Origin: Hyalella azteca
Lineage: Eukaryota > Arthropoda > Malacostraca > Amphipoda > Hyalellidae
Assembly: GCF_000764305.2 (NCBI RefSeq)
Contig: NW_025939167.1
Span: forward strand, 124,001-188,000
Reading direction: 5' to 3'
Length of the DNA stretch: 64,000 nt
The position numbers and the translations under genes were made by a program. Every line of letters starts with the position of its first letter. Position 1 is the stretch's first letter. The notes under the pieces are model-generated. The model saw only the letters and a list, made by a program, of their open reading frames with translations, did not search any database and was not told the origin of the DNA. Below are positions 52,197-62,891 of the stretch, piece by piece.

Positions 52197-52267
52197 ATGC
52201 TTGCAGCGGCCGCAGCCGCAGCTGCTCAGCACAACCCCAACAAGAGGTCCCGGATAGACAGCATCAG
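52197..52267 (+). CDS. CtBP: CtBP exon 1
   Basis: [19 protein letters not shown] then IDSI, ending AG|GTGAGG in phase 2. The RSRID core corresponds to the fly N-terminus; the poly-Ala run is local. The start is uncertain because the frame is open upstream to 52077. Confidence 0.8.
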
Positions 52268-61200: not shown

Positions 61201-62891
61201 CGGGACGACCCAAGATTCTAGTTAGTGCCACGGCACACCACTAGCGGGTAACCCATGACTGTAACTTGTGCCACGGCACACCACTAGCGGGTAACCCATG
61301 ACTGTAACTTGTGCCACGACACCGCTAGCGGGTAACCCATGACTGTAACTTGTGCCACGGCACACCACTAGTGGGTAACCCACGACTGTAACTTGTGCCA
61401 CGGCACACCACTAGCGGGTAACCCATGACTGTAACTTGTGCCACGGCACACCACTAGCGGGTAACCCACGACTAACTTGTGCCACGGCCCACCACTAGCG
61501 GGTAACCCACGACTGTAACTTGTGCCACGGCACACCACTAGTGGGTAACCCACGACTGTAACTTGTGCCACGACACCATCAGTATGCAACTAGACTGATT
61601 TTAGTGCAGTAATTGTACTGAGCAAACATCACTGCACTGTTGAATTCATGTATCACATCTATGACTGATGACAGGACTGACAGCAGGACTGATAAGAGGA
61701 CTAATCTGGAATCACACAATGACGGTTTATCAGCTGCAACCCAATTAGCCTCCATTTTTCATTTCCTTTTTGTCGCTTTATTTTATTTACTTGTTATTTT
61801 GCACTTAATATTTTATGGGCAATTAAAAATTTATTCACAAATTCTAGCAATGCATTTGTAGAATTCTGTTGCCGAGACATTACTGTGTTCCAGTCTGTCA
61901 GTTTGCTATCTAGATAAATCTGTGTATTTCTTGAGACACTAACACCATTAAACCATTTTTTTACTTTAGTAATACTCGTAGAGAATTACCGTAATTTTTT
62001 ATGGGAGAGACTGAACCGTAGATTTTTTCGTGGCATAGACTTCATATCGGCGCACTAAACACCTGCCATATCTTTCTCCTCAAGTGATGTTCACTTCAAC
62101 TTAGCTTCATTTTTATCGATGATTTTCATCTTGAATTGTTGGATATCTTGAAATAATGTAGGAAATGGTTGAACAATTTTGTCCTATGATAACTTGAATG
62201 TCTCAAGTTTTGGAAGTTTCATAGTTTCGTGCGTTTTTTACATCTTTGTGCATGGAAGATTTTGCTCCGATTTTACTAAATCTAATGAATTAACGCACTT
62301 TATTTTTGTGTACAGTCAAGAAGACGTCACTCTTCTTAAGTCGCTGCCCTCCAGTACAAACACGCGATTTAATAAACAACATTTGAATGAGAAATTTCTA
62401 ATTACATTTTTAATTTTGTTCAATTTTAATTATCGTTAAGCGTACTGTATTTTTTTCACGTTTACCTCCACGCTTTGGGAGTTGCGGAATTGACGTCGCA
62501 GCTCGGATCACGATTACCTATCATTTTGATTGAGGAGCGGCATTTTATATTTGTCCTTATGTTAAGTTTTGGACGTCCTCGACCATAGTAACGCTGATGT
62601 GCCACCTCCGTTGTCCGCTGTTTTCATGTTTTTGACAAACAGGTCGCCCCGTCACCATGGCCTTGGTGATGATTATTATTTGTCACTGTTGTTCAGCTTC
62701 ATTATCGTTTACTAATTTTCACAAGAATCCTACCATCTTCATCCATGAACACCAGCATTTTTGTCACTCCTGATATTTACACCAAAAATAGACTTATTAT
62801 TAGTTTTTGGGTTGATTTCGGTGGTCCTGTATCATATTTTTTTCTGCAGGCTACAACGGCCGGTATCAACGTAAAGCCTGACGTATCGTAA
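52197..62891 (+). CDS. CtBP: C-terminal binding protein (transcriptional corepressor), 10 exons
   Basis: Nuclear corepressor that binds PxDLS-type motifs in repressors and recruits chromatin-modifying complexes; its fold is that of an NAD(H)-dependent D-2-hydroxyacid dehydrogenase, which dimerises with NADH. Exons: 52197-52267, 53712-53889, 54414-54542, 55976-56198, 57892-58016, 58505-58736, 59136-59290, 59940-60150, 61019-61167, 62850-62891, all in phase, 504 residues. Marks: KRSRID near residue 18, as in the fly protein; [23 protein letters not shown] loop GLGRIG (199-204); catalytic triad by homology Arg284 (NTARG), Glu313 (HENEP), His333 (TPHAA). The tail (372-504) is Ala/Pro-rich and disordered, ending INVKPDVS, with a VKPD sumoylation-type site like VKPE of vertebrate CtBP1. 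If intron 9 is not removed, the frame ends at 61221 (508 residues). The start is ATG 52197; an in-frame ATG lies at 52077. Nearly every intron holds junction-derived repeats. Confidence 0.97.
52268..53220 (+). repeat. Donor-seeded minisatellite filling most of CtBP intron 1
   Basis: Begins at the donor itself, GTGAGGGTAACTTGAGTGAG, and continues for about 950 bases as 24-bp (AACTTGAGTGAGGGTAGTGA GGGT) and 15-bp units. Both lengths are multiples of three, giving long NLSEGSEG frames that are not genes. Almost every unit has one or two GTGAGG words like the true donor. Confidence 0.95.
53515..53711 (+). repeat. C-rich repeat forming the polypyrimidine tract of CtBP exon 2
   Basis: 27-bp units of CTTCCAACCCCCTGTACCCC, then degenerate C-rich sequence ending CCCCCTGTCCCCCAG, the acceptor. 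The acceptor's own CCCCCTGT word is the repeated element. Confidence 0.8.
53712..53889 (+). CDS. CtBP: CtBP exon 2: start of the dehydrogenase fold
   Basis: [43 protein letters not shown]. This is the substrate-domain strand and cleft that binds PxDLS peptides. Donor AAG|GTAATG. Confidence 0.97.
53890..54150 (+). repeat. Donor-seeded minisatellite in CtBP intron 2
   Basis: The donor GTAATGAGAG is followed by about ten units of GGTTATGAGGGTAATGAGAG. Thins out after about 54150. Confidence 0.92.
54414..54542 (+). CDS. CtBP: CtBP exon 3
   Basis: 43 codons, [43 protein letters not shown]. Phase 0 at both ends. Acceptor GGTTGCTGCAG, donor AAA|GTGAGT. Confidence 0.97.
54543..54992 (+). repeat. 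33-bp array made of the CtBP exon 3 end and donor
   Basis: The junction GTCGACTCTAAA|GTGAGTCAACTG is repeated about thirteen times as ATTCGACTCGAAAGTGTGTC AACTGGCGTGTTG, 33 bases per unit. The exon part and donor part stay together in each unit; GTGAGT has become GTGTGT in nearly all copies. Confidence 0.96.
55090..55466. repeat. Copy B of duplicated segments P and Q in CtBP intron 3
   Basis: A pyrimidine array leads into P (55244-55343, same as 42502-42601), which joins directly to Q (55343-55466, same as 42871-42994). The 269 bases separating them in copy A are gone; the join has a TGT overlap. Confidence 0.9.
55976..56198 (+). CDS. CtBP: CtBP exon 4
   Basis: [56 protein letters not shown], ending GIVGL plus the first base of Gly201. 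Acceptor TTATTGTACAG, donor CTC G|GTGAGT, phase 1. CACAGGCTGCTGGCAAGCTC at about 55835 and two ...GCAGGC sites after it are possible decayed copies of the exon edge. Confidence 0.97.
56199..56534 (+). repeat. Array of CtBP exon 4 end plus donor
   Basis: The junction CATCGTCGGGCTCG|GTGAGTGC is echoed by TACCGTGGGGCTCGGTGAGT, TATCGTAATGCTCGGTGAGT, TATCGTGGGGCTCGGTGCGT and more, each with a GGGCCTTGG or GGGCTTTGG word. About seven degenerate copies with a period of 50-60 bases. Confidence 0.9.
56535..57622. mobile_element. TTAA-flanked inverted-repeat element (piggyBac-type MITE)
   Basis: TTAA at 56535-56538 and 57619-57622 bound a 1,080-bp insert that begins GGGGAGCGTTCGTCCTAAAA and ends GGGCGAACGCTCTCC, imperfect inverted termini. 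Inner blocks CCAAAACCATCTCTGTACGT GATTTAT are duplicated near 56625 and 56838. No transposase frame. It lies inside the exon 4-derived array, whose GCTCGGT/GGGCTTTTG words resume at 57623. Confidence 0.88.
57892..58016 (+). CDS. CtBP: CtBP exon 5: Rossmann NAD-binding start
   Basis: Completes Gly201 and reads [41 protein letters not shown]. With exon 4 this forms the GxGxxG loop GLGRIG. Acceptor GGAATTGCAG, donor CAG|GTGGGG. Confidence 0.97.
58017..58310 (+). repeat. Array of CtBP exon 5 end plus donor
   Basis: The junction GGTCTACACTCTCCAG|GTGGGG recurs as GGGCTACACTCTGCCTGAGG, GGTCTACACTCTGCAAGAGG, GGCTACACTCTGCAGGTGGG and others, ten or so degenerate units of 25-35 bases. Confidence 0.92.
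58344..58390 (+). repeat. Copy of the CtBP exon 6 acceptor and start
   Basis: TGCAGGAGCTACTGTACCGC (58351-58370) repeats TGCAG|GAGCTACTGTACC of the true exon at 58505, then diverges. A decoy acceptor about 150 bases upstream. Confidence 0.85.
58505..58736 (+). CDS. CtBP: CtBP exon 6: catalytic-site exon
   Basis: [75 protein letters not shown]. Holds Arg284 and Glu313, the homologues of CtBP1 Arg266 and Glu295. Acceptor ATTGTCGTGCAG, donor GCA G|GTAATT, phase 1. Confidence 0.97.
58927..59135 (+). repeat. Five tandem copies of the CtBP exon 7 acceptor and first bases
   Basis: Units start at 58927, 58968, 59013, 59054 and 59095, then the true exon at 59136: a 41-bp period (one unit 45). Each reads TTGCAG|GTGCCCTCAAGGACG CCCCTAACCTGATCCTCACC, so it has a complete acceptor and about 28 exon bases. 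The true exon departs at ATCTGCACG. Confidence 0.97.
59136..59290 (+). CDS. CtBP: CtBP exon 7
   Basis: [52 protein letters not shown]. His333 of TPHAA is the third catalytic-type residue. The Trp of human CtBP1 (W318) is Tyr336 here. Sixth and last of a row of repeated acceptors. Donor AAG|GTGAGG. Confidence 0.96.
59291..59440 (+). repeat. Donor-side repeat in CtBP intron 7
   Basis: GTGAGGTGACTCTGGTGAGT and GTGGTGGGTGGGGAGG-like words repeat three to four times right after the donor GTGAGGGTGG, then fade into G/T-rich sequence. Confidence 0.8.
59940..60150 (+). CDS. CtBP: CtBP exon 8: start of the disordered tail
   Basis: [20 protein letters not shown], then Ala/Gly-rich runs, [30 protein letters not shown] and HST match the fly tail. 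Acceptor GCGTTGCAG, donor ATC G|GTGAGA, phase 1. Confidence 0.93.
60151..60440 (+). repeat. Array of CtBP exon 8 end plus donor
   Basis: The junction ACTAATATCG|GTGAGATCTT recurs as ACTAATATCGGTGAGAGCTT and ACTAATATCGGTGAGAACTT, alternating with the related CTAATGTCAATGAGATCTTA and CTGATGTCAATGAGATCTCA. Period about 25 bases, about ten units. Confidence 0.94.
60483..60585 (+). repeat. Dispersed repeat A, third copy, in CtBP intron 8
   Basis: GGCCTAAGTACACGTAGCTG and a following GATTGATGGGTTTCGCTTAA are shared with 44741-44870. Confidence 0.7.
61019..61167 (+). CDS. CtBP: CtBP exon 9: Pro/Ala-rich tail
   Basis: [46 protein letters not shown]. Acceptor ATGGTTGCAG. A consensus donor GCC|GTGAGT follows at 61168 in phase 0; without splicing the frame goes on to TAG at 61219-61221. 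Confidence 0.85.
61168..61221 (+). CDS. CtBP: Alternative end of CtBP (intron 9 retained)
   Basis: If the donor at 61168 is not used, 17 more codons ending DDPRF and a TAG follow. This segment already shows the CTAGTGGGTCAA...CCCACG words of the array behind it, so it looks more like intron. Confidence 0.4.
   Translation: MSVALVGQHNPRDDPRF
61176..61585 (+). repeat. 43-bp minisatellite at the start of CtBP intron 9
   Basis: About eight units of GTGCCACGGCACACCACTAG followed by CGGGTAACCCATGACTGTAACTT. A diverged first unit begins within 61176-61220, next to the donor. Confidence 0.93.
61586..62849 (+). other. CtBP intron 9, nothing else recognised
   Basis: AT-rich sequence with no coding-like frame. 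It closes with a good polypyrimidine tract and TTTTTTTCTGCAG at 62849. Confidence 0.6.
62850..62891 (+). CDS. CtBP: CtBP exon 10: terminal exon with VKPD motif
   Basis: Thirteen codons, [13 protein letters not shown], then TAA 62889-62891. Phase 0 fits exon 9, and VKPD matches the position of the VKPE/IKTE sumoylation-type site in vertebrate and fly tails. A donor-like ATC|GTAAGC overlaps the stop, so splicing onward to an exon outside the window is possible. Confidence 0.75.
   Translation, partial: ATTAGINVKPDVS

Follow-up and report, generated by a model that had tools for sequence, protein, structure and literature searches.

Why so many tandem arrays in the introns of CtBP, a gene of the amphipod Hyalella azteca, begin at splice donors is the question raised by this locus. 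The locus lies in a stretch of 64,000 nucleotides (assembly GCF_000764305.2, contig NW_025939167.1, positions 124,001 to 188,000), which is called the window here. In several genes, array starts were found to favour donors, and many of the arrays at donors copied exon bases. The CtBP model comprised 10 exons with GT-AG junctions, and its spliced product of 505 aa had no internal stop. The best database match was H. azteca CtBP isoform X3 (99% identity over 98%). The CtBP-like protein of Hirondellea gigas showed 82% identity over 98% and resembled the exon-10 form. The exons of the gene model were placed as follows, with the strand in brackets.

52194..52267 (+), CtBP exon 1, the 5' end of the exon being left undefined
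53712..53889 (+), CtBP exon 2, the acceptor lying 9 nt further downstream in isoform X3
54414..54542 (+), CtBP exon 3
55976..56198 (+), CtBP exon 4
57892..58016 (+), CtBP exon 5
58505..58736 (+), CtBP exon 6
59136..59290 (+), CtBP exon 7
59940..60150 (+), CtBP exon 8
61019..61167 (+), CtBP exon 9, the donor being read through in isoform X3 to a stop at 61219-61221
62850..62891 (+), CtBP exon 10, coding part including the stop codon

Array calls were made with Tandem Repeats Finder (TRF) at a score of at least 50, and starts are given relative to the first intron base (position 0). In seven of the nine CtBP introns, an array began in the stretch from the last 12 nt of the exon to the first 5 nt of the intron (0, -1, -9, -11, -1, +4 and -12 for introns 1, 2, 3, 4, 5, 7 and 8, respectively). 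Random placement of the arrays within the introns gave an expectation of 0.78 donor-edge starts against these 7, and a lenient null with 25 nt of exon overlap allowed gave 1.65. No array was called by TRF at the donor of intron 6. The earlier note on this DNA had listed these seven donors and that of intron 9; the seven were recovered, and the array of intron 9 was found to start about 57 nt in. The arrays at the CtBP junctions are given below.

52268..53225 (+), intron 1 donor-edge array, 63-bp higher-order unit of the GTGAGGGTAACTTGA type, exon bases not found
53889..54143 (+), intron 2 donor-edge array, 20/89-bp unit, exon bases marginal
54534..54991 (+), intron 3 array, 33-bp unit, 12 copies as assembled, exon end GACTC.AAA fused to the donor
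56188..56287 (+), intron 4 array, 40-bp unit with GGGCTCG joined to GTGAGTGCA
58016..58296 (+), intron 5 array, unit of about 28 bp, junction copies resembling CTACACTCTGCAG joined to GTGGGG
59295..59393 (+), intron 7 donor-edge array, G-rich unit of about 28 bp, exon bases marginal
60139..60446 (+), intron 8 array, 26/78-bp unit with TTACTAATATCG joined to GTGAGA
61225..61578 (+), intron 9 array, 43-bp unit, start 57 nt past the donor
62892..63113 (+), array after the CtBP stop, 18/36-bp unit, starting at the base following the stop codon
58920..59182 (+), exon 7 acceptor array, 41-bp unit, running into exon 7
58350..58368 (+), single partial copy of the exon 6 acceptor with 13 exon bases, 149 nt upstream

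The array of intron 9 (61225-61578) is separated from the stop codon of isoform X3 by a gap of 3 nt. The edges of this array and of that at 62892-63113 look as though they were set by coding sequence. Two minisatellites with 57- and 49-bp units also occur in the same order at 42492-42908 and 55117-55524, 12.6 kb apart, and the second pair lies in CtBP intron 3.

The junctions were then compared with their arrays by means of a 24-mer consisting of 12 exon and 12 intron bases. The proposal that the unit contains the exon end together with the donor in introns 3, 4, 5 and 8 was borne out by the best 24-mer copy, in which 10, 11, 9 and 12 of the 12 exon letters were kept. The exon-end copy was marginal for introns 2 and 7 (8/12 letters each), and no exon-base copy was found for intron 1 with this test. 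Ungapped extension of the best-scoring copy kept 11, 11, 0 and 12 exon bases in introns 3, 4, 5 and 8 and 7 in intron 2. The copying of acceptors with the first exon bases, proposed for exons 6 and 7, was likewise seen. The exon 7 acceptor (CTTGCAG followed by GTGCCCT) had five upstream copies at a spacing of 41 to 45 bp, the nearest being a perfect 20-mer, and exon 6 had the one partial copy listed above. The earlier observation on CtBP was mostly real, with the corrections given here.

The hypothesis arose from CtBP, and the test was therefore moved to other genes. Gene families were picked without looking at their repeats, namely Cpn60/TCP1 chaperonins (nine genes), aldehyde dehydrogenases (ALDH; seven regions, six with usable introns) and ATP synthase/V-ATPase subunits (four regions). 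With MUT (methylmalonyl-CoA mutase), which lies upstream of CtBP on the same strand, the pooled non-CtBP sample comprised 135 introns from 20 gene loci of one H. azteca assembly. Exons were located by aligning human proteins, and junctions were chosen by protein fit and splice-site score, blind to repeats. Junctions with a protein-alignment ratio below 0.45 were dropped (5/75 for the chaperonins, 14/41 for ALDH, 0/17 and 0/8 for the ATPases). Exon pairs with no candidate junction numbered one each at loci L048, L049, L051 and L053 and two at L050. The ATP5A1 array at 357-393 of locus L055 (donor 391), with less than 15 nt inside the intron, was left out of the count, and the chaperonin-family matches C4411 and C4049 and the ATPase match C75 were left out of the panels. 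A first chaperonin set (31 introns, profile coordinates), in which the exon-edge copy test was weak (3/31 donors at a score of 12 vs 9/930), was superseded by the set of 70 introns placed with human proteins.

Arrays were present in 30 of the 135 non-CtBP introns. In 14 cases the array started at the donor, against 2.68 expected (0/100,000 permutations), and 6 cases were found at acceptors, against the same expectation (P = 0.044). For the blind panels only (122 introns, 25 with arrays), the donors gave 12 vs 2.22 expected (0/100,000 permutations) and the acceptors 4 vs 2.22 (P = 0.17). Exon edges had been suggested to be preferred starting points of tandem duplication or places where copied splice signals are tolerated or selected. 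Array starts were concentrated at donors beyond CtBP, which may reflect either, and the acceptor signal was much weaker.

The support for a donor excess outside CtBP came mainly from the chaperonins, in which 21 of 70 introns had arrays and 11 of these started at or within 15 nt of the donor. The expected number was 0.88, or 1.95 under the lenient null (0/20,000). At the chaperonin acceptors, 4 cases were observed (0.89 expected, P = 0.0096; 1.97 under the lenient null, P = 0.13). The donor excess was robust to TRF scores from 40 to 120, windows from 5 to 40 nt and the omission of any single gene, with a weakest leave-one-gene-out P of 0.0001. Array starts in these genes reached 3.81 per kb over the final 30 bases of the exon and 2.68 per kb over the initial 16 bases of the intron; none fell at -60 to -31, and deeper in the intron (beyond +15) the density was between 0 and 0.41 per kb. 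The donor start density was 15.5 times that of the deeper intron (Poisson P = 3e-10). The corresponding ratio for array ends at acceptors was 2.5 (P = 0.08). Moreover, 8 of the 11 chaperonin edge arrays started inside the last 30 nt of the exon. The ATPases had 25 introns, 2 of them with arrays and 1 at a donor; at that donor, in ATP5A1, the last 18 exon bases and the donor were repeated at steps of about 109 bp.

The copying of exon bases was also evaluated in the wider sample. A significant intron-side copy of the junction 24-mer was present at 18 donors vs 8 acceptors among the 92 introns of CtBP, MUT and the chaperonins. At least 9 of the 12 exon letters were kept in the best copy for 13 of 20 donor-edge arrays, and 14 of 21 arrays copied exon bases once ATP5A1 was added (18 bases, by extension). 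When ungapped extension was run on 15 of the 21 edge arrays, at least 9 exon bases were kept in 10. The exon ends had a mean GC content of 57% at 20 array donors vs 51% at 99 others (P = 0.007). These GC-richer exon ends are consistent with a composition step that favours duplication, without proving one. Exon-end GC as the sole cause was rejected, the gene-level correlation being weak (rho = 0.31, P = 0.23) and the per-donor difference modest.

In MUT, 14 exons were mapped; the last exon was not found in this mapping, and the model of intron 5 requires a GC donor. Donor-edge arrays occurred at 2 of 13 introns (13635 with a 118-bp unit; 17830 with a 22-bp unit), and the features at MUT junctions were as follows.

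13614..13873 (+), MUT intron 7 donor array, 118-bp unit, copies resembling GGCATATCCAAG joined to GTTGGGGG
17819..18046 (+), MUT intron 13 donor array, 22-bp unit CCACTCTTTCAG joined to GTGAGTGGGG, 10.4 copies as assembled
13151..13511 (+), MUT acceptor array into exon 7, 187-bp unit
12484..12520 (+), copy of the last 34 bases of MUT exon 6 with 3 donor bases, absent from the TRF rows

The exon 6 junction (12446) carried a two-copy duplication with a step of 71 bp downstream. Within MUT intron 6 (12447-12520), a stretch resembling a branch point and an acceptor can be seen by eye ahead of the 34-base exon-end copy, and GT follows the copy, which thus looks like a small duplicated exon.

For the window as a whole, a simple count of array starts from -30 to +15 of the donor gave 9 of 23 donors (CtBP 7/9, MUT 2/14), against a background of 5 to 6%. 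In a test with 30 bases of each exon edge, a score of at least 12 was reached with the gene's own intron at 6/22 donors vs 4/462 mismatched pairs and at 4/22 acceptors vs 1/462 mismatched pairs.

Several results weigh against a general preference for donors or against a founding step across the junction. In ALDH, 2 of 27 introns had arrays and none started at a donor, and the number remained 0 in 37 introns once 10 lower-quality junctions were admitted. The ALDH and ATPase panels combined gave 1/52 vs 0.27 expected, which was not significant, and MUT alone was non-significant by the simple count (P = 0.16 to 0.20). The pattern cannot be regarded as a property of all genes, for ALDH (0/27 introns) and several sampled genes lacked donor arrays. 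In the first gene set, donor+10 was inside an array in 4/44 non-CtBP introns vs 3.3 expected and in 7/9 CtBP introns vs 3.9 expected (P = 0.04), and a coverage-based null erased most of the non-CtBP excess. Furthermore, 7 of 20 edge arrays fell below nine exon letters (two with 8/12, one with 6/12 and four with no significant copy). Extension kept no exon bases for CtBP intron 5 and MUT intron 7 and kept 7, 6 and 4 for CtBP intron 2, MUT intron 13 and the HSP60 donor at 6594, respectively. Junction copies were present at 6/9 CtBP, 4/13 MUT and 8/70 chaperonin donors, and at random intron positions they occurred at 38%, 13% and 10%, respectively. Donors are hardly richer in repeats than intron interiors; the arrays that touch donors begin there.

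Arrays of this kind have been described in amphioxus. Minisatellite-like duplications of exon-intron boundaries in the globins BflGb6 and BflGb9 are called 'mirages' (PMC3087553). According to that paper, the name goes back to a report on amphioxus Adh3 (Canestro 2002 NAR 30:2871), both 5' and 3' boundaries are affected, and splicing is apparently undisturbed. PGBD5 and troponin C were added as cases (PMC3902484). Junction arrays of this kind, of which the earlier note knew no gene-wide case, were already on record as mirages in these two sources. The H. azteca arrays are similar in that the tandem unit spans the boundary in 13 of 20 donor-edge arrays and in ATP5A1, and at the acceptors of CtBP exon 7, MUT exon 7 and CCT4. 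The remaining donor-edge arrays do not clearly match the mirage criterion of a boundary-spanning unit. The amphioxus cases are presented gene by gene, with no measured enrichment in the accessible parts of these reports, whereas the present sample covers several genes of an amphipod with the donor bias quantified. Splicing was followed by reverse transcription-polymerase chain reaction in amphioxus and was judged from CtBP protein sequences here.

Other systems show partial likeness. The minisatellite of human 6-16 (IFI6) supplies multiple splice donors (Turri 1995 NAR 23:1854, via PMC4526556); its repeat units act as donors and the downstream ones are used to give isoforms, whereas in H. azteca the protein evidence favours use of the first donor alone. 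Introns can be created when AGGT segments undergo tandem genomic duplication (PMC3443670). This process also copies splice signals, but it starts in an exon and makes a new intron, whereas the H. azteca arrays sit in introns already present. In human segmental duplicates, exon-intron boundaries likewise carry internal minisatellite repeats (PMC2812944). The genes concerned are recent paralogs of primates whose exons or introns have changed; the H. azteca arrays lie in conserved genes with apparently unchanged proteins. The open-access literature searched, which lacks most subscription papers, yielded no report of a crustacean case or of array starts biased towards donors. The arthropod case and the measured donor bias are new here, the kind of array being already known from lancelets.

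With moderate confidence, the arrays are explained as 'mirage'-type minisatellites that arise by recurrent duplication across the junction and are tolerated since the exon-proximal donor stays in use. The founding event would be a short tandem duplication that includes a few to 34 exon bases and the start of the intron, and a second exon edge and donor would thereby be placed inside the intron. Slippage or unequal exchange may then expand the duplication into an array. Splicing would continue at the exon-proximal donor, the added copies would leave with the intron, and the protein would be unchanged. The added sequence would thus be intronic and harmless. No inserts from later donors were found in the CtBP proteins of H. 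azteca and H. gigas, and the first donor is probably the one used in the CtBP transcript. The copying of exon bases by many edge arrays, and the start of most chaperonin ones within the exon, are the reasons for preferring a founding event that spanned the junction. A duplicated acceptor sets an AG upstream of the true one, and splicing tends to meet such an AG first. Duplications of acceptors would therefore disturb splicing more often, and fewer would survive. The donor excess itself may reflect more frequent duplication and not survival alone, perhaps at the step from GC-rich exon to AT-rich intron.

A simpler account is that arrays arise anywhere in introns and spread until coding constraint halts them at the exon edges. 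This boundary effect is unlikely as the whole explanation but could produce part of the donor pile-up. It would fit the coverage of donors outside CtBP, which is about that of the introns, and the two arrays that start just past stop codons (at 62892 and, for isoform X3, at 61225). It would also fit the arrays that stop 41 nt short of the exon 3 acceptor and 46 nt short of the exon 4 acceptor, near the expected branch-point constraint. A pure stop at the edge, however, predicts neither the start of 8/11 chaperonin edge arrays within the exon nor the exon bases copied by 14/21 edge arrays. Moreover, growth by slippage need not shift the flanks of an array, and the density of starts at donors was 10.8 times that found further into introns (MUT and chaperonins). 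It is improbable that the arrays are kept by selection for spare donors that aid splicing, for example, by recruiting the U1 small nuclear ribonucleoprotein or by buffering donor mutations. The retention of GT in 63/72 counted copies would be expected from such selection, as would the MUT intron 13 copies, several of which score equal to the true donor on a splice-site matrix, and the GTCAGT mostly retained in CCT5 copies. At CtBP exon 3, however, the copies read GTGTGT (11) or GTGCGT (1) and never the true GTGAGT, and GT was lost in 7/9 counted copies at CtBP exon 8. Near the aligned centre, GT was not clearly better conserved than its neighbours, and several sampled genes had no such array.

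An artefact of short-read or mate-pair assembly is very improbable, and the point in its favour lies within the window. Perfect head-to-head copies of CTGTCTCTTATACACATCT, the Nextera transposase adapter, are found at 5110-5147 and 26265-26302; these pairs are mate-pair junction adapters that were not removed from the assembly. The assembly was probably built on short and mate-pair reads, and exact array copy numbers are therefore not trustworthy. The copies within arrays are nevertheless diverged and differ among genes, and the arrays lie on separate contigs. An assembler is blind to exon edges, and a donor bias is therefore not expected from an artefact. That the donor motif GGTRAGT is itself prone to repeat, regardless of exons, is scarcely credible. 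The motif was on the gene strand in 5/20 edge-array units vs 1.5 in shuffles, but the 84 arrays away from mapped donors had 3 (+) and 5 (-) occurrences vs 2.7 in shuffles. Because these arrays showed no clear motif excess, array seeding in this sample is not explained by the motif alone.

An origin as an introner or a transposon-borne repeat was rejected: the 14 exon-copying arrays carry the exon end of their own host gene; genome-wide dispersal of the units was not searched.

Other features were noted in the window and the panels. An inverted repeat built of tandem arrays occupies 43035-43300 and about 43961-44260, with arms about 0.7 kb apart. At 37580-39254, a 160-bp unit is present in 10.5 copies as assembled with 100% matches, which would be a very recent expansion or an assembly product. 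A CCT3 exon stretch of 186 bp occurs twice, letter-identical, at 2200-2385 and 5077-5262 of locus L038, 2.9 kb apart with no N run between. An LSM-domain exon lies at 2541-2786 (+), and a weak reverse transcriptase fragment, under the Pfam cut-off, lies at 24375-24653 (-).

The junction-spanning origin leads to a wider and more tentative proposal, which is held at somewhat short of an even chance. Donors may be a mutational hotspot for tandem duplication in this crustacean, far above elsewhere in genes and perhaps linked to germline transcription, and duplicated donors may be steadily supplied to evolution, independently of lancelets. Should tandem duplication favour donors, it would generate, at a measurable rate, starting material for the sliding of introns, for alternative donors and for the gain of introns. 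Exon edges as mutational hotspots would become directly testable in a laboratory animal. The arrays also tie a little-noticed oddity of amphioxus to a distant phylum, and gene predictors face many decoy splice sites in genomes of this sort.

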